DNA of 58,458 nucleotides, taken from the NCBI RefSeq assembly GCF_010686655.1, contig NZ_JAAGVY010000032.1:1-58458 (forward strand), given 5' to 3'. The DNA comes from Cryomorpha ignava. Lineage in GTDB: Bacteria; Bacteroidota; Bacteroidia; Flavobacteriales_D; Cryomorphaceae. Under the pieces are notes generated by a model, which ran no database searches, had not been told where the DNA came from, and saw only the letters and a list, made by a program, of their open reading frames with translations. Position 1 is the stretch's first letter; every line of letters starts with the position of its first letter. Below are positions 1,911-39,029 of this stretch, in pieces. Made by a program: the position numbers and the translations under genes.

Positions 1911-3107
1911 TCAATGTTGTGATTCCGAGAATTTGGGTACAGTTATTTTATAAAATTCTGGGCTACCTCCCATTTTAATATCCGTGGGAATAAAGAAACC
2001 ATCAATTCGACGACTTAATGGTAGAGCGGTGTTGTCATCAATGTTTAAGGTGATGGGTTTGATGTTGTTTTCAAGTTCAGGAAATCTCTCTTTCAAAGAA
2101 TTTACAATGCCTTCTGCCCTCGGGTCTTGGATATAAACGACAGCATCGGCACGCATTGATTTAAAAAACGCTTCATCAATGTCTCGGTTGAAAAATGGAA
2201 AGGAATAACCAATAACGACAATATTTTTAGCTGTTTGGATCATTTCTATACCAGTTTCAATTACAGCATTATTAGCCATTTTAAATTCTTTCTCCCAGCA
2301 AAATGACAGATTACAATTTATAGAATTTTCTTTTTGCTCAAGGTCTTTAAGATTATTATCAATCGCTGAAAATAAGTTCACATAACTATCAAAAACCTCT
2401 TTAATTTGCTTAATATTATCCGAACTGAAGGATTTAGGCCAATCATGAATGATAGCTTGTGATAGTCCAAGAATATTTTCACCTTCATTGATAATTGTAG
2501 CACTGCCATTTAATTTAAGGACATTGAAGAATCCAAGCGCTCTATGTATGAAGTGATTTTTACTATTAATATGAAGCAAATTTTGAACCTTTTGTAATCT
2601 ATATTCTTCAGCGTATTTCATATATGCCAATTCAATGTGGCAATCGTAATTCCATGAGATTATTCCGAAGTTGGCTGGGAGATCATCTGCAGTATTACCA
2701 ATTATACTGGCAAAAAATGAATCATATCTGAAATCCGGCCCATTTCTGAGCTGCTCAATTGTCAAGAAGACACTCAAAGTTATTTTTAGAATCTCATACT
2801 TTTTTCTGTTCGTGATGTAAAGTTTTTTTGCATAAGTGTCAATGCTTGCATGATTTTTGGAATTCTGACTTATTTCTGCAACGTTATTTTGATAGTGATT
2901 GATCTCTTCTGTAGTTATGCCCTTTAATTTTTTTTGGACATCTTCAGAAAGTAACCATTCCACTTGTTTCTCCATTTGTTCTTCAAAATTTTTAACCAAG
3001 GGAAGACCATTAAAGCTTGCACCGGCTCCTAAATAATATACTACTTCTTTAGGAACATACATCTCACCTATTGCGTGAAATACTTTTTCTCTTATTCTTT
3101 CATCCAT
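1911..3107 (-). CDS. SIR2-like NADase-type protein
   Basis: This 398-residue protein shows three SIR2-type marks: YYLGAGAS at residues 24-31 (nucleotide-binding loop), ISWNYD near residues 150-155 (the Asn/Asp region of the active site), and VVIGYSFPFFNRDID near 295-310 (the GYS...D motif typical of defence SIR2 proteins). It has no Zn-binding Cys cluster of classical deacetylases. SIR2 domains of this type in phage-defence proteins degrade NAD+ to block infection; that role here is inferred. The gene starts 11 bases after the stop of the restriction-modification gene and ends 12 bases before the DUF4365 gene, which suggests one operon. No second recognised domain (SLOG, HerA, TIR) was seen. 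The middle region (residues 60-140 and 190-290) is unassigned and may hold a sensor part. Confidence 0.8.
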   Translation of the reverse strand: MDERIREKVFHAIGEMYVPKEVVYYLGAGASFNGLPLVKNFEEQMEKQVEWLLSEDVQKKLKGITTEEINHYQNNVAEISQNSKNHASIDTYAKKLYITNRKKYEILKITLSVFLTIEQLRNGPDFRYDSFFASIIGNTADDLPANFGIISWNYDCHIELAYMKYAEEYRLQKVQNLLHINSKNHFIHRALGFFNVLKLNGSATIINEGENILGLSQAIIHDWPKSFSSDNIKQIKEVFDSYVNLFSAIDNNLKDLEQKENSINCNLSFCWEKEFKMANNAVIETGIEMIQTAKNIVVIGYSFPFFNRDIDEAFFKSMRADAVVYIQDPRAEGIVNSLKERFPELENNIKPITLNIDDNTALPLSRRIDGFFIPTDIKMGGSPEFYKITVPKFSESQH

Positions 3108-3118
3108 TTCAAAATAAT

Positions 3119-6100
3119 TTACCTATTAAAAATCACACTATCAGCATGCTCAATCAAAAATATTTCATCCTCCGTCAACCCATATAACTCATACATATCC
3201 CGATCATTACCAAACTCTAATAGCTCAATTGTCTCTCTGTCTCCATTCGCATAAGCCGAGAGAAGATCTTCAGCACCTCCGCTTATAACAGGGTGAAAGT
3301 CTGGTAATATTGGCAATTGATTGATGTAAACAGGCTTATACTCAAAATAGCCATTCTGCTTAGTGCTGGCTATACTTTTAAAATAAAAATCAACGAGTTT
3401 TGAGTTGAGCTGTCCTAAAAGATTAAAATCACTCAATGGGATTATTGTAGTTTTATCGTTGCCATAATTGCCCTTGGTGTCATAAGCATAATTTGCACTC
3501 TTTGCAATTGCCGGAATAATGATTTTCGGCTTATCAAACTCTTCATAATAAGTTGCTGCACATCTTTGAAGTGCATACCATTCATAACGTACCCCTGTTT
3601 CAGCTTTGTTTCTTTTTTCAAGTTTTCCTTTAAACTTCAAAAGATGATTGTACACGGAAGGAAATCGCTTTTCAAATTCCAGTTCAGCCTCTTTAGAAGC
3701 ACCGTAAACACTTTCATCTTTATGCAAAGGAAAATGCCAGGGTATAAACAAAATGTAATTATCACTCTCAGGCTGCTTATACCGTTTAATATCTCTCCCA
3801 GCCAAAAATGGTTTAATAACCTCTTCCGATCGTACATCTTCAGCTATAAGCCGATCGCGCGTAGCTTGATCAATTACAAAAGCTTCGTTGAGTCCGGTTT
3901 TAATACCGTAGTATATCTTACCCTCCACATATTCGCTAAGCGGCACACCCTTGCTGCGTATTTTGGCGAGAAGCTGCTGTACATCTTTGGGCACAAGCGA
4001 CCAGCCTTCGGTGCGCAACTCACCCGCCAATACTTCAAAGCGCGACAGGTGGTGACTAAAGTCAAGCCCATCGGCATAGTTGAGCGCCGTAACGGTTGCT
4101 GCCCTAAACACATTGGCTACAGCCGCCTTTTCCATTTGCATAATGCAGGGGTAGGTGGTGGCTTCTTCGAATACGGGTAGGTCGCCAAAGTCTATAATTT
4201 CGGTAAGGCGCTGCTCTTGCAGGAAGCTGCGAAGTGCGCTGCCGTAGCCCGCGCGCATCCACTTATTGGGTATAATATAGCTAAATGCCGCACCGATGCG
4301 CATTATGGTGAGTGCGCGCTCTACAAAATACACGTATAGATCGGCCGTGCCAGCGTAAATTTTGTAATGCTCTTGTAGGTATGGCTTTATGTCGCCCAGC
4401 TCTTCCTGCCTGATGTACGGCGGATTCCCAATAACCACATCAAACCCCACAAAGTCGCCCTTCTCATTGAGCACTTCGGGAAATTCAAACCGCCATTCAA
4501 AGGCATTTTCAAATACCTTGTTGTTTTCTACTTCGGTGCGGGTGGCTTCGAGGGTTTTTAGTTTTTTGGAGGCTTTGTCCAGGTCTTTGGTAAGAGCTTT
4601 TGTGGCTTCGCCCCACTGGTGGCGGGTGTTTATTTCAGTGGCAAGCTTTTCTACTGCCCCGCGCGCTTTTGATAGTTTTTTGATGAAGGGCGTTTCAATG
4701 GTGGTTTCAAAATCGGATTTTATGCCCGCTATCAGCCGCTCCATTTCGTGCTTTTCTTCCTTGTTTTGTGCATTGCGGTAAGTGCTTACAGCTACGCGGT
4801 AACTGTCTATTGTAAACTTGCTTTTGCGCAGGGCTTTGCTCAGGCTGGCATCTATACTAAACCTGCTTATTAGCGAGTTGCCGCACTTGATGTTGATGTC
4901 AATATTGGGCAAGGTTTGTAGTTCAACAAGCTCCCGCTCCCCTCCTTTCAAAGGAGGGGTGTCCGTAGGACGGGGTGGTTGCTTATCAATTAAATCAAGG
5001 GTGTCCCCAGGACGTGGTGGTTGCTGATCTTTCAAATCACTTTTGTCCCCAGAACGGGCTGGTTGTTTACCAAAATAATTTTTAACCTCTTCCAACAATC
5101 CTCCCGGATTATTCCAAACCCACTTATTTTCGAATCTCAAAACGCGTATACCGGAATATTCCAGGAATAAATCCCGCTCTCGATCATATTCAGCCTGGGT
5201 GGCTTCAAAATGGCCTTGTCCATCCAGCTCAATGGCCAGCCGCTCTTCTGGGCAATAAAAATCAAGTATGTAATTGGCAAAACTATGCTGTCGCCTGAAT
5301 TTTCTTCCTTCAAGGCCTTTGCCTTTTAACAAAGTCCAGAGTTTTGCTTCAGCTGGGGTTAAATTATTTCTTAGATTCTTGCGGAAGGTTTTTAGGTATG
5401 GGAGGTTGTTGAACTTAACCCCTCCGGCCTTTGGCCACCTCCCCTTTTCAGGGGAGGAGTTTTCTACGTGCTTTATGTAATAGGCGTTTTTCAAGAGCTC
5501 TATCCATAGCCGTAGCCGGCATATTTTTACCGAGTTTGGGTTTATGTCAACCCCAAAAAGGCAGTTTTCTATCAGGGTTTGCTTTTCGTGAAAGAGGGTT
5601 TCCTGCACCCGCTGGCTCTCTGCGTTGTTAGGGTTGTAGTCAAAGAGTTCGCCTTCTTCGTCGGTAATAATCAGCTCATCGTTTACCACTTCGGCTACAT
5701 ACTCTTTTAGGCGGCGTCCTTGGCGGTCTTGGAGTATTTTCAGGTCATTTTTAACGGCTATGATTTCATTTAATGCCGATACCAAGAAGTGACCAGAGCC
5801 TACAGCAGGATCGCATATTTTAATTGAGTTTACAATGGTATTGGCTTCGGCTCGATCTTCAATTTTATCGTAGATGGCATCCAGGTCGCTGCACTGCCAG
5901 CCTTTGGTATCGTTAAACTTTTGCACCACCGCCTTGCGGATGGTTTCGCGGCACATATACATGGTTATGAAGCCGGGCGTAAAGAAAGAGCCGTCTTTGT
6001 AGCCGTTTATCTTTTCGAAAATTAGCCCCAGCACAGAAGCGTTTATAAGTGTCTTGTTGTCTTCTTGAATGTTTTCGCTTCCTTCGCTGCTAAAATCGTA

Positions 6101-7507
6101 GGCATTCAAAAAAGCGAATAGATAGTCAAGGGTTTTCATTCGTCCTGTCCGCTTTTTGCCATTTACATCTTTCAGCACCGTTCCCGGAAGGATGGGCAGG
6201 GTCTTGTCGTTGCTCAAATTGCTGATCAGCAGGGTGGTTTGCTCTATCTCGGTGGGCTCAAAGAGCGAAGAGTTTAGGTACGGCACATGTTTGAAAGCTT
6301 CTTTTACATCGGTGTTACGCGCATCGTGCTTCTTGGCAAGCACCTGAAAAAAGAGTCGATTCAGATCGTCGTAATCTTTTACTTTATTGGAATTCAAAAA
6401 AGCCTTTTCGGAATTGCCTTTGTGGTAAGTAAGGAGCTGTGCTTCGAGCAGTTTTAAAAACAAGATGCGGTTTATCCAGGTAATGGAGAGTTCGAGTGCC
6501 ACATTAAAAAGCCGCTCCTTGTGGGTGTCGCCATACTGTGCTGGTTTTTCAAGGCGGTATATTTTGTCAAGGCTGTCGAGTTGAATAATGGCATCTTCGA
6601 GTATGCTACCCGAGTTTATTGCTTTTTCGGAGTTTCGCTCTATCAGTTTTTTGCCGCCTTGCTTGGTTTCGTTCAGGCCAATGATGTGTAACAATTCGCT
6701 GTAAAACCGCTTATCGAGGCTATTGCTGTCGTTTGCAAATGGTAGCTTGAGCAAATGCTCGGGCGATAGCAGCTTGTAGAGAGCTATAAGCTTGGTATCG
6801 TCTTTTTTATCGGCATTACGCAGCGGCTTTTTGTAATCGTTCAGATTAAAATAGGTATAATCGAAATCTGTTTGCAGCTGTGCTATAAACGGTTCGGCTA
6901 TTTGCTTGTAAAAGAAATCGGTATTGGTGCCAGCCAGTCGGCCTTCTTCAAAATCGGTAAACTGCCTTACTAGAACTTTGTTTTGGGCAAAGAGCCGCTC
7001 AAAGACAGTGGCGTCAAAAATAAACCACTCGTAGCTATTTGTTACCACAAGCTGTTTTACTTCCAAATTTTTGGCAGTAATGCGTTCGCGCAGGTAGTAG
7101 AGCACCAGTTCGTGAAAAGCTTTGGTATTTAGTGCAGCAAGCTTTTCAACAAATGGGGCATCATCGGCTACAGCCTTAACCATTTCGGCGGTATTGGTTG
7201 GCTTCTTGGCTTCTACAATTACGCCCACTGTTGTTTTTGCCTTGGCGCCGTTGTGAATAACCAGATCGTTGCGGCCTTTGGTATTTACAAAATGGTTGGG
7301 GTCGTAATAGGTCTTTTTCAGAAAGTCAATTACCAGGTTTTTGTGAAACTCTTCGCTTTCGATGGCGTTGGTTCTATCGAGCAATTGTATTAAGTTTGCC
7401 TTAAATTGCTCTATCTCCTGCCGGTTTGGCTTTACTTTCAGAAAGGCTTTATTCAGTGCCTTTCGAGGTTTTAATCTGGTTATGTTGGTGTTGTTCACTA
7501 TGCTCAC
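3119..7507 (-). CDS. Type IIG restriction-modification enzyme (Eco57I-like) with an inserted DUF559 domain
   Basis: This 1462-residue protein would cut and methylate DNA in one chain. Near the N-terminus lies a PD-(D/E)XK nuclease pattern: D81 in GRNDLVIH and E99-A-K101 in VIVEAKK. The methyltransferase follows: motif I as DPAVGSGHF near residue 566 and motif IV as IGNPPYIRQEE near 1028. The C-terminal 250-400 residues should be the target-recognition part. About 173 residues (roughly 684-857) between motifs I and IV form an inserted DUF559 endonuclease element; without it the protein is about 1290 residues, usual for the family. The assigned start is GTG at 7507; no ATG sits near the conserved N-terminus. 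By eye the 3' sixth of the gene (below about 3860) is AT-rich like the SIR2 gene while the rest is much richer in GC, which suggests exchange of the recognition part. The frame has no stop, so the enzyme may be active. Confidence 0.85.
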   Translation of the reverse strand: MSIVNNTNITRLKPRKALNKAFLKVKPNRQEIEQFKANLIQLLDRTNAIESEEFHKNLVIDFLKKTYYDPNHFVNTKGRNDLVIHNGAKAKTTVGVIVEAKKPTNTAEMVKAVADDAPFVEKLAALNTKAFHELVLYYLRERITAKNLEVKQLVVTNSYEWFIFDATVFERLFAQNKVLVRQFTDFEEGRLAGTNTDFFYKQIAEPFIAQLQTDFDYTYFNLNDYKKPLRNADKKDDTKLIALYKLLSPEHLLKLPFANDSNSLDKRFYSELLHIIGLNETKQGGKKLIERNSEKAINSGSILEDAIIQLDSLDKIYRLEKPAQYGDTHKERLFNVALELSITWINRILFLKLLEAQLLTYHKGNSEKAFLNSNKVKDYDDLNRLFFQVLAKKHDARNTDVKEAFKHVPYLNSSLFEPTEIEQTTLLISNLSNDKTLPILPGTVLKDVNGKKRTGRMKTLDYLFAFLNAYDFSSEGSENIQEDNKTLINASVLGLIFEKINGYKDGSFFTPGFITMYMCRETIRKAVVQKFNDTKGWQCSDLDAIYDKIEDRAEANTIVNSIKICDPAVGSGHFLVSALNEIIAVKNDLKILQDRQGRRLKEYVAEVVNDELIITDEEGELFDYNPNNAESQRVQETLFHEKQTLIENCLFGVDINPNSVKICRLRLWIELLKNAYYIKHVENSSPEKGRWPKAGGVKFNNLPYLKTFRKNLRNNLTPAEAKLWTLLKGKGLEGRKFRRQHSFANYILDFYCPEERLAIELDGQGHFEATQAEYDRERDLFLEYSGIRVLRFENKWVWNNPGGLLEEVKNYFGKQPARSGDKSDLKDQQPPRPGDTLDLIDKQPPRPTDTPPLKGGERELVELQTLPNIDINIKCGNSLISRFSIDASLSKALRKSKFTIDSYRVAVSTYRNAQNKEEKHEMERLIAGIKSDFETTIETPFIKKLSKARGAVEKLATEINTRHQWGEATKALTKDLDKASKKLKTLEATRTEVENNKVFENAFEWRFEFPEVLNEKGDFVGFDVVIGNPPYIRQEELGDIKPYLQEHYKIYAGTADLYVYFVERALTIMRIGAAFSYIIPNKWMRAGYGSALRSFLQEQRLTEIIDFGDLPVFEEATTYPCIMQMEKAAVANVFRAATVTALNYADGLDFSHHLSRFEVLAGELRTEGWSLVPKDVQQLLAKIRSKGVPLSEYVEGKIYYGIKTGLNEAFVIDQATRDRLIAEDVRSEEVIKPFLAGRDIKRYKQPESDNYILFIPWHFPLHKDESVYGASKEAELEFEKRFPSVYNHLLKFKGKLEKRNKAETGVRYEWYALQRCAATYYEEFDKPKIIIPAIAKSANYAYDTKGNYGNDKTTIIPLSDFNLLGQLNSKLVDFYFKSIASTKQNGYFEYKPVYINQLPILPDFHPVISGGAEDLLSAYANGDRETIELLEFGNDRDMYELYGLTEDEIFLIEHADSVIFNR
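4939..5457 (-). mobile_element. Hairpin-bounded DUF559 endonuclease element inserted in frame in the restriction enzyme
   Basis: On the minus strand the element begins with hairpins (GGGGAGG/CCTCCCC arms at 5438-5457, GGCC-TTT-GGCC near 5426-5436), then encodes a DUF559 (Vsr-like) domain: NNLPYLKTFRKNLRNN, TPAEAKLW, GRKFRRQHSF, ILDFYCPEERLAIELDGQ, then GIRVLRFENKWV. It ends with three 42-bp repeats and a perfect 21-bp palindrome (10-bp arms, 4939-4959). Similar hairpin-flanked DUF559 genes are, from memory, common as stand-alone genes in Bacteroidota. Here the whole unit, hairpins included, is translated as about 173 residues between methyltransferase motifs I and IV. The catalytic-looking residues (D in LDFYCP, E-L-D in AIELDG) are kept. 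Exact ends and any target duplication are not resolved. Confidence 0.7.
4961..5066. repeat. Three 42-bp tandem repeats coding 14-residue units
   Basis: Copies start near 4961, 5003 and 5045 with the core GTCC(C/G)(C/T)AGGACG(T/G)GGTGGTTG. The period of 42 keeps the reading frame and gives Pro/Arg/Asp-rich units (QPARSGDKSDLKDQ, QPPRPGDTLDLIDK, QPPRPTDTPPLKGG). They form the C-terminal linker of the inserted DUF559 element. Confidence 0.75.
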
Positions 7508-8209: not shown

Positions 8210-8638
8210 ATGCATAGTCTCAGCTATAGCGCAAATGAACCCTATCCGGATGCCAATGGATTTATCAATTTCGACGAAGACTTTGATAGTTTCGATTTAA
8301 ACGATGTTGCCGAGGGTAGCTTGGGGTATAAGAAAAGCGTGGATCACCAGAGCAGGAAATATTCAACTTGCTGGGTACCGAAACATCCCTGCGCAGCATA
8401 CGCGAATTGATAGAGAAGTTTATTCTGGAGAACCTACCCGTTTTTGAAGACGCCGATGAAGTTGAACCCGCCTTTGACCAATACTGGAGCGAAGAACAGC
8501 AGAAGGCGTTTAAGAAGTTGGTAACAGAAGAAAACCTATCTCCCGAGCGAACAGAAAAACTGATTGAAGATTATCTCTTTGCCGAGCGGGAGCCTATGCG
8601 CGATCAGGTATTGGAATTGATTGAAGGCGGCCACCCAA
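8210..8638 (+). pseudogene. Truncated type I restriction subunit hsdR, C-terminal fragment
   Basis: Two adjacent frames read as one protein with a frameshift near 8345-8365. The first is rich in Asp and Phe (NGFINFDEDFDSFDLNDVAEG). The second reads SPEQEIFNLLG, ELIEKFILENLPVF, AFDQYWSEEQQKAF and EKLIEDYLFAEREPMRDQ, which matches the C-terminal EcoR124-type domain of HsdR. The match ends abruptly at 8638, where the first REP hairpin of the IS200-like element begins; the last HsdR residues are not visible on the far side of the element. The helicase and nuclease parts are absent. No hsdM or hsdS lies nearby. The locus is a decayed type I system. Confidence 0.65.
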
Positions 8639-9401
8639 GTGCCAGAGGCACGATCGTTATTTTAGCGGATGGTTTTAACCATCCGACAAAATGCAGAAAC
8701 AAAATACAAAGTGCCAGAGGCACGACCGTTATTGCCTGTTTCAACATCGCTTGTATTGAAAATCAATTCGTATATTGAAACCGATAACCAATAAATCGTT
8801 TTCTAATCATGGCCAATACCTATTCTCAACTTTTCATTCATGCCGTATTTGCGGTAAAGTATCGAAAATCAATATTAATTGATTCTGTTCGCCATAAGGC
8901 GTTGGCCATAATTGGACAACAAATCAAAGATGCAGATTGTACTCCACTTATTGTAAATGGTGTGGAGGATCATGTTCATTGCTTATTTAATATCCCGCCA
9001 AAATATGCTCCGTCAGATATTCTTCAGAAAGTGAAGGCCAAATCTTCCAAAGATTTCAATGATGAACGTTTATTTGATTCTCCTTTTAGATGGCAAGGTG
9101 GCTCGGGCTTATTTTCGCATTCTTATAGAGAAGTGGATGGAATATATCAATACATCAAAAATCAGGAAGAACATCACCGTAATGTCACCTTTCTGGAAGA
9201 ATTTCTGCTTCTTCTGAAAGATCAGAATATTGACTTTGATCCTGATTATCTTTTCGATCCGCTCGTTTGATATCATTACAAAAAAGAAGGTCGGGTGTTT
9301 TGGGTAAAAACGGTCGTACCTCTGGTACTTTAGGAATTGCTTAATGATTTCTATCCACGGAGTAAACTCCATGGCTAAAATAACGGTCGTGCCTCTGGCA
9401 C
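8639..9401 (+). mobile_element. IS200-like element framed by inverted REP-hairpin doublets
   Basis: The left end has REP hairpins GTGCC-AGA-GGCAC at 8639-8651 and 8711-8723 with a 20-nt hairpin at 8666-8685 between them. The right end mirrors this: GTACC-TCT-GGTAC at 9316-9328, a 20-nt hairpin at 9355-9374 (one mismatched pair) and GTGCC-TCT-GGCAC at 9389-9401. The distance from the outer REP edge to the inner hairpin is 27 nt at both ends. The Y1 transposase gene lies inside. The element sits in the hsdR remnant. IS200-family enzymes recognise such subterminal hairpins as single strands. Confidence 0.75.
8809..9270 (+). CDS. IS200/IS605-family Y1 transposase
   Basis: This 153-residue protein is the size of IS200 TnpA. 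It starts MANTYSQLFIHAVFAVKYRKS, carries the HUH metal motif as DHVHCLF near residues 48-54, and has the C-terminal helix with the expected Tyr in GIYQYIKNQEEHHR near residues 105-118. It ends FDPDYLFDPLV, as related Bacteroidota transposases do. The reaction is single-strand excision and joining through a phosphotyrosine, acting on hairpins at the element ends. No tnpB follows. The frame is intact, so the element could still be mobile. Confidence 0.88.
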   Translation: MANTYSQLFIHAVFAVKYRKSILIDSVRHKALAIIGQQIKDADCTPLIVNGVEDHVHCLFNIPPKYAPSDILQKVKAKSSKDFNDERLFDSPFRWQGGSGLFSHSYREVDGIYQYIKNQEEHHRNVTFLEEFLLLLKDQNIDFDPDYLFDPLV

Positions 9402-38678: not shown

Positions 38679-38748
38679 AATGTGAAAGATTCAGATTGCA
38701 ATACATTAGTAATGATAATTTTATTTTACACAGAATTTAAACTTCTTA

Positions 38749-39029
38749 GTGCCAGAGGCACGACATTTATTTTAGCCCCGGATTTCAATCCGGGGTCAAA
38801 TAGAAACAAATCACAAAAGTGCCAGAGGTACGACAGTTTTTGCTTCAAACTGATTCGATAGAAGAAATTTCATCCGGTGGCATAGTTTGCATTTCTATTT
38901 ATTGAATTTAAATCTCAATGAAACTTCAATTTGTAATAACTGTCGTGCCGATGGCACTTAGCTTTTTAATGCTATTTTTAGTCCTTGGGTTAAAACCCAA
39001 GGCTAAAATAACGGTAGTGCCTTCAGCAC
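38749..39029. mobile_element. Transposase-less REP-doublet element related to the IS200-like copy
   Basis: REP hairpins GTGCC-AGA-GGCAC lie at 38749-38761 and 38819-38831 (second ends GGTAC) with a 20-nt hairpin at 38776-38795. In opposite orientation there are GTGCC-GAT-GGCAC at 38945-38957, a 20-nt hairpin at 38983-39002 and GTGCC-TTC-AGCAC at 39017-39029. Spacing equals that of the 8.6-9.4 kb element (27 nt from REP edge to hairpin; 70-73 nt between REPs), but the 110 bases between the halves hold no transposase. It is probably a non-autonomous relic. It fills much of the gap 38679-39198, which has no gene. Confidence 0.75.

Follow-up and report, generated by a model that had tools for sequence, protein, structure and literature searches.

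An apparently mobile, hairpin-bounded DUF559 nuclease unit inside a type IIG restriction enzyme of Cryomorpha ignava

Introduction

The usual view is that a selfish nuclease element in a conserved gene needs an intron or an intein for the host product to survive. Inteins with a homing endonuclease lie in frame, carry a nuclease and are patchily distributed in conserved proteins, as does the insert described here in a restriction enzyme gene of Cryomorpha ignava. However, no splicing domain was found in this insert by Pfam, and it would stay in the protein. Another related system is the EDxHD homing endonuclease I-Bth0305I, which remotely resembles DUF559 in fold and sequence and shares the patchy presence at one site of conserved genes. 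Its structure (3r3p) is titled as that of a mobile intron protein, whereas the insert is bounded by palindromes and no intron or intein was found with it. A DUF559 gene has already been placed in the EDxHD family in the available part of PMC9403480. Long added DNA-binding regions of EDxHD homing endonucleases are described in the accessible text of PMC3943268, but none were seen in the insert.

REP and REPIN sequences associated with RAYT enzymes (TnpA_REP; mainly subclass 2.4 in the available sections of PMC6006769) likewise form inverted palindrome pairs that are dispersed in some genomes and sometimes lie in frame. The insert differs in that its palindromes flank a DUF559 nuclease, in having hairpins unlike those of the RAYTs tested, and in a right-end hairpin that is single in its own genome, whereas REPINs occur in many copies. 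Rickettsia palindromic elements and in-frame REPs also place palindromic DNA in frame, presumably translated, in housekeeping genes; as far as the text of PMC3733652 was available, these are short repeats of 20–82 codons as against a nuclease-bearing unit here. The insert has in common with them an in-frame palindrome in a conserved gene that is absent from homologues and probably translated, but it is no short repeat without a gene of its own, since it carries DUF559. PARCELs are palindromic coding repeats that spread horizontally within frames, as the insert appears to do, but according to the accessible part of PMC2996958 they form a repeat protein domain in unassigned open reading frames instead of a nuclease in housekeeping genes. 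In the open-licence PMC literature, no listed title or abstract dealt with DUF559 units that lie within coding genes or are flanked by palindromes.

Host gene and anatomy of the insert

The window is the whole stretch of DNA that was analysed, 58,458 nucleotides of contig NZ_JAAGVY010000032.1. The features of the locus are as follows.

3119–7507 (-): host gene for a type IIG restriction enzyme-methyltransferase of 1462 amino acids, open across the insert
4922–5476 (-): whole insert, 185 codons, host residues ~678–862, delimited by empty homologues and accurate to a few codons
5417–5459 (-): left-end double-hairpin repeat, sense CTCCTCCCCTGAAAAGGGGAGGTGGCCAAAGGCCGGAGGGGTT, including the hairpin at 5438–5457 named in the initial annotation
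5072–5395 (-): DUF559 nuclease domain, host residues 705–812, with conserved putative active-site residues
4987–5073 (-): two degenerate copies of the right-end repeat, spaced by 42 nt, 73% identical to the reference copy (family D1)
4937–4980 (-): right-end double-hairpin repeat, inverted relative to the left end, holding the 21-bp palindrome at 4939–4959

The best PADLOC match of the host is a type IIG restriction enzyme-methyltransferase, and Pfam recognised DUF7149, DUF7814, Eco57I and TaqI_C in addition to DUF559 (PF04480, 98.6 bits against a cut-off of 20.6), which separates the DUF7149/DUF7814 part from the Eco57I methylase domain. The initial annotation had proposed an insertion between methyltransferase motifs I and IV with no stop or frameshift, and both points agree with the sequence: the reading frame is open throughout, and the insert is preceded by GVDINPNSVKICRLRLWIELLKNAYY and followed by VIGNPPY, which we take to be these two motifs. 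The 21-bp palindrome CCCCTCCTTTCAAAGGAGGGG was found at the expected position, 4939–4959, its one place in the window (where both strands match), and in none of 100 shuffles, and the second hairpin, CCTCCCCTTTTCAGGGGAGG, at 5438–5457. The extent of 4939–5457 first assigned to the element thus gives its hairpins correctly, but the true borders, read from empty homologues, are slightly wider (4922–5476).

Each end of the insert consists of a two-hairpin repeat of 43–44 nt, and the two ends are mutually inverted. The pattern of the right-end hairpin has one place in the whole genome of C. ignava, at the insert, and up to 127 places in other genomes; being single at home, the hairpin came with the unit. 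A 16-nt inverted repeat (4920–4935 and 5400–5415, 94% complementary) was also noticed, lying outside the right repeat and inside the left one.

Homologues without the insert

The initial annotation had argued for an acquired unit as opposed to an ancestral domain present at the same place in most homologues. Among the best 80 of 585 host-homologous stretches found by a scan of genome contigs, 73 were without insert, even though the pattern FENKWVWN used in the scan lies within DUF559 and favours carriers. In these 73 the alignment ends at host residues ~677–691 and restarts at ~842–863. The other seven (L032–L038, L036 being identical to L032) have DUF559 at the site seen in the window, with varying numbers of hairpin peptides. 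The four further genes with the N-terminal part of the host that were met among 249 genomes of the same order (G019, G087, G156 and G247) were all empty. As judged from these alignments, the insert is an acquired, hairpin-bounded unit and not an ancestral domain.

For the empty site, 76 uninserted hosts were compared, namely the 73 from the contig scan and three more, with the G156 gene (L010) excluded for an internal stop codon. The linker is exactly five residues long in 64 of the 76, and 11 have 12–37 residues at the insert site. Of these 11, seven hold a strong hairpin without nuclease at this same linker, differing in sequence between hosts, and one (L084) has two repeat peptides but no nuclease there. 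From this comparison, palindromes have repeatedly targeted the linker, in some cases together with a nuclease and in others without one.

On a quick tree of the host N-terminal part (81 rows, excluding L054, L061 and L089, in which the motif was not found, and L010), the eight carriers, two of them identical, need seven changes, at least four of which are forced by branches with good support; shuffled carrier labels need 7.8, about as many. The window host and some other carriers sit on long branches with unsure places. By contrast, when 147 DUF559 domains were compared, those of the carriers (seven after dropping the identical one) grouped together as a single clade in 98% of 200 bootstrap trees; this alignment kept 102 columns, and 51 of 143 inner branches stayed open. 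These 147 domains are a non-random sample (all 50 listed rows in frames of at least 280 amino acids, 10 mid-sized, 60 free-standing and further loci), in which "embedded" is defined by the open frame.

Between carriers L032 and L034, dS was 0.35 for the host (last 150 codons) and 1.71 for the insert; synonymous sites are saturated between most other carriers, so transfers would mostly be old. The insert itself is under purifying selection (pN 0.05–0.16, pS 0.67–0.89). Its relatives on plasmids (41 records) and phages (5 records) each cover less than 80% of the query. Presence and absence at the same site across lineages, seen here and in the methionine synthase MetH (see below), make insertion and a patchy same-site distribution plain at the level of sequence, and for the window site we infer gain of the insert rather than loss.

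Hairpins flanking DUF559

The initial annotation had also expected hairpin-flanked DUF559 as separate genes in Bacteroidota, and this holds. Of 87 free-standing DUF559 genes, 57 have a strong stem within 250 nt on the left and 57 on the right; for the 55 embedded domains the numbers are 36 on the left and 27 on the right. This range of 49–66% compares with 5–6% in control windows (7/110 and 8/170), which were taken from the same loci, are mostly coding and are unmatched for intergenic DNA (142 of 147 domains were usable for this analysis). A fairer comparison for the free DUF559 genes is given by the flanks of Y1 transposase genes, strong in 13 of 62 (30 loci and the window's own), and of RAYT genes, strong in 22 of 59. 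The left flank resembles the inverted right flank in 69% of the 55 embedded and 63% of the 87 free domains, as against 11% and 9% of cross pairs. Direct repeats with a score of at least 60 enclose 41 of 90 free DUF559 genes, and the examples inspected were largely such hairpins.

At the genome level, DUF559 is present in 35 of the 36 genomes with at least five copies of the pattern CCTCCTTN{1,5}AAGGAGG and in 128 of the 359 others, counts that rest, like those of frame lengths below, on hand-copied lists. Alternatively, RAYT or another Y1 enzyme may move the hairpins as REPIN-type repeats of the usual kind, with DUF559 as a passenger caught between two of them. In-frame REPs inside genes have been published (PMC6006769 and PMC3733652, in their available parts), and the seven linkers with a hairpin but no nuclease favour such mobility. 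RAYTs occur in 35 of the 36 hairpin-rich genomes, 27 of them above the cut-off, and Y1 transposases are associated with the same genomes (32/36 vs 197/359). However, at five or more copies the odds ratio is 63 for DUF559 and 6.6 for Y1. When stratified by family, it is 78 (z 3.9) for DUF559 and 5.9 (z 3.3) for Y1 at three or more copies, where low hairpin counts include the copies flanking DUF559 itself, and z is 2.9 for both at five or more.

The hairpins themselves may also speak against a RAYT origin. In 19 genomes, the similarity of the flanks of the best RAYT to those of DUF559 was 19–29, against a cross-genome baseline with a median of 21 and a maximum of 32, and two genomes (26 and 29) reached the 90% value of the baseline, 26; this compares the best RAYT of each genome, and most genomes have further ones. 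The hairpins of Y1 genes differ by eye from those of DUF559. RAYT-driven REP mobility with DUF559 as a passenger is the main alternative, but on balance we regard it as unlikely.

A polarity of the ends was considered in the 57 embedded domains (CCAACCC on the left 12 against 4, p 0.06; TAAATCC on the right 2 against 10, p 0.03) and was rejected as weak and post hoc; it was not seen in the 90 free DUF559 genes (CCAACCC 2 against 8, TAAATCC 2 against 4).

Units within other proteins

PF04480 is present in 163 of 395 Bacteroidota genomes. The open frame around DUF559 reaches 280 amino acids or more in 50 of the best 150 matches listed from these genomes, and 800 or more in 37. The proposed occurrence of hairpin-bounded units in other coding genes was borne out by in-frame cases around which Pfam named the host domains: leucyl-tRNA synthetase (LeuRS) at two sites (L144, L168), MetH (L152, L153), the helicase RecG (L176), a fused methylmalonyl-CoA mutase (L166), a UvrD-type helicase (L163) and a Type ISP enzyme (L171). 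By motif, further hosts are presumably HsdR, HsdM, coproporphyrinogen oxidase, HisF and others, and those motif-named hosts with a terminal DUF559 could be read-through frames. In four genomes of one family (L185, L186, L187 and L189), DUF559 stands in one open frame ahead of a gene that by motif we take to encode coproporphyrinogen oxidase; this may be either a true fusion or a read-through frame.

In the tree of 147 domains, a supported clade (99/95) of 28 domains unites all eight MetH, four RecG, seven LeuRS, two methylmalonyl-CoA mutase and two UvrD-type units with only three free ones. In genome G412, four of its own DUF559 domains fall into one supported sub-clade, as expected from copying within the genome; two of them are free, a third is embedded in a UvrD-type gene and the fourth ends a longer frame. 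A search at E 1e-10 detected no second LeuRS in any of the seven genomes with an insert in LeuRS, so the unit most likely forms part of a functional essential enzyme there. Tolerated translation of the unit, as the initial annotation had supposed, fits the single LeuRS and MetH genes. The idea of a mobile unit turned into part of a protein therefore stands as far as an acquired, hairpin-bounded, in-frame unit is concerned, but it is not special to the restriction enzyme, which is one of many cases.

MetH within one genus

In one genus, MetH is present in 111 of 121 genomes, and 11 carriers of an insert were confirmed by sequence among these 111. A likely twelfth (G737) lies on a broken contig. 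In the other listed genomes the match is split at query residues ~433 and 570 or is partial only, and an empty linker reads, for example, EAQKDGKSSSAGKV. On a MetH tree of 28 rows (28 of 30 loci from the 111 genomes, with L333 and L339 dropped and with a sampling that favours carriers), the 11 carriers need five changes, at least three of them forced, against 8.9 for shuffled labels. The carriers are thus patchy but clustered beyond chance, which indicates that vertical descent contributes.

The MetH unit of G671 is far from the others, with an insert dN of 0.34–0.48 compared with a host dN of 0.06–0.24, and its host sits among empty alleles on the tree. The ends of this unit are the inverted repeats AGCCCCCCAACCCCCGAAGGGGGAGCT and AGCTCCCCCTTCGGGGGCGGGGGGGGCT; no target-site duplication was readable. 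On the stretch of L152, which holds a MetH insert, a SAM riboswitch (7128–7235, minus strand) and a SAM-II riboswitch (8509–8590, plus strand) were also recorded.

These data bear on a more conventional explanation, in which a useful nuclease domain was gained and then inherited vertically with losses, or in which the whole enzyme was transferred horizontally. A restriction enzyme is a natural place for a nuclease, restriction genes account for several of the hosts of embedded DUF559, the insert is under purifying selection, and the MetH carriers are partly clustered. Against this stand the scattered carriers on the host tree, the uniform empty linkers and, above all, equivalent units with hairpins at their borders in LeuRS, MetH, RecG and methylmalonyl-CoA mutase. 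Because none of these enzymes has an apparent need for a DNA nuclease, an ordinary domain gain appears improbable, more so than the passenger explanation.

The nuclease and the search for splicing

Six residues (E, Q, D, E, H and D) are invariant in 57 embedded and 86 free DUF559 domains, the window included, and from this conservation they form a putative active site with a presumed catalytic role. In the structure predicted for the insert, confidence is high in the core (10-residue means of 83–97 over residues 41–150) and low in the hairpin peptides. A prediction of the host region (pLDDT 61.7, pTM 0.36) was too poor to place the insert. Profile searches against solved structures returned 3hrl (E 2e-32), I-Bth0305I (3r3p, E 8e-5) and, weakly, PvuRts1I. 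Foldseek gave E values below 0.001 for 3hrl and I-Bth0305I (7.4e-4 for the latter) and 0.02 for Vsr. On profile and model comparison, DUF559 is thus a remote relative of the homing endonuclease I-Bth0305I.

Inverted hairpins at both ends and insertion in conserved genes would also be compatible with an intron, an intein or a bypassed element, removed at the RNA, protein or decoding step. Rfam gave four matches in eight sources, none of them an intron, and Pfam identified no intein or protein-splicing domain in the window host and nine other host proteins, in line with the earlier description of the element as intein-free. Furthermore, the frame is kept without stops in all eight window-site carriers, which were found by host homology, and in all 11 MetH carriers of the one genus, something that removal would not require. 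The wider set of embedded domains cannot be used for this argument, as it was chosen partly for open frames. We consider removal of the insert highly improbable, the least probable of the explanations weighed here.

Other features of the window and the genome

Within the window, an IS200/IS605-family Y1 transposase gene lies at 8809–9270 on the plus strand (NF033573, 68.7 bits, cut-off 55). Its YIKNQEEHH resembles the subclass 1.2 motif YIKNQKEHH given in the accessible text of PMC6006769, and the hairpin ahead of the gene, CGGATGGTTTTAACCATCCG, is unlike the repeats of the insert. Two genes on the minus strand adjoin the restriction enzyme gene, one for a DUF4365 protein (1485–1898) and one for a 398-residue protein (1911–3107). 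For the latter, neither Pfam (E 1e-4) nor PADLOC (E 1e-5) gave a match; its start, YYLGAGAS, is to our mind reminiscent of SIR2-like proteins. A match to the Acido-Lenti-1 RNA family was found at 38748–38795 on the minus strand (41.0 bits, gathering threshold 37).

Elsewhere in the same genome, a free-standing DUF559 gene on contig C29 (L001) is surrounded by inverted repeats around CCCCTTAAGGGG and CCCCTTTAGGGG, with a hairpin different from that of the insert. Another DUF559 gene appears to have been split by an element with inverted ends CCTGAGTTCGAT, which left one fragment near an end of contig C19 (L004) and another near an end of C89 (L005); the middle of this element is unassembled there.

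Discussion

The explanation that we prefer, with a probability of roughly 0.6, is that of a mobile, hairpin-bounded DUF559 element that inserts in frame into linkers able to tolerate it, is read as part of the host protein and spreads in a homing-like manner to the same site in other lineages. The unit would consist of a hairpin repeat, a DUF559 nuclease frame and an inverted hairpin repeat, and would move as a DNA element in which hairpin ends and nuclease act together. With neither a stop codon nor a splicing module, it would have entered the five-residue linker in frame. The ribosome would read through it and produce the full fusion, and the nuclease would thus fold as an extra domain of the host on flexible peptides encoded by the hairpins. 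If active, this nuclease, alone or with the hairpins, could drive the movement by opening an empty allele, and the unit would then be copied into the same site in the other lineage. Free-standing units would be the likely source for new host genes, and the element would persist because it lands in flexible linkers and in frame. Hairpins may also enter the linker without DUF559, as the bare hairpins in seven of the 76 empty hosts suggest.

The window is one case of a wider class that was apparently undescribed before. A further-reaching proposal is that of a separate class of elements in Bacteroidota, in which DUF559 nucleases mobilise paired palindromes of a family of their own and one of their lineages has specialised in invading essential genes in frame and unspliced, as a permanent domain with site-specific homing. 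This proposal is tentative, and in our estimate its chances fall somewhat short of even.

The importance of these units lies in their position in the only LeuRS found, in MetH, RecG and other proteins, with no splicing module detected. It becomes testable that a selfish element can persist merely as a tolerated extra protein domain. This would suggest a role for DUF559, a very common domain of unknown function, and for a large family of hairpin repeats, and it would explain unusually long housekeeping proteins in Bacteroidota.
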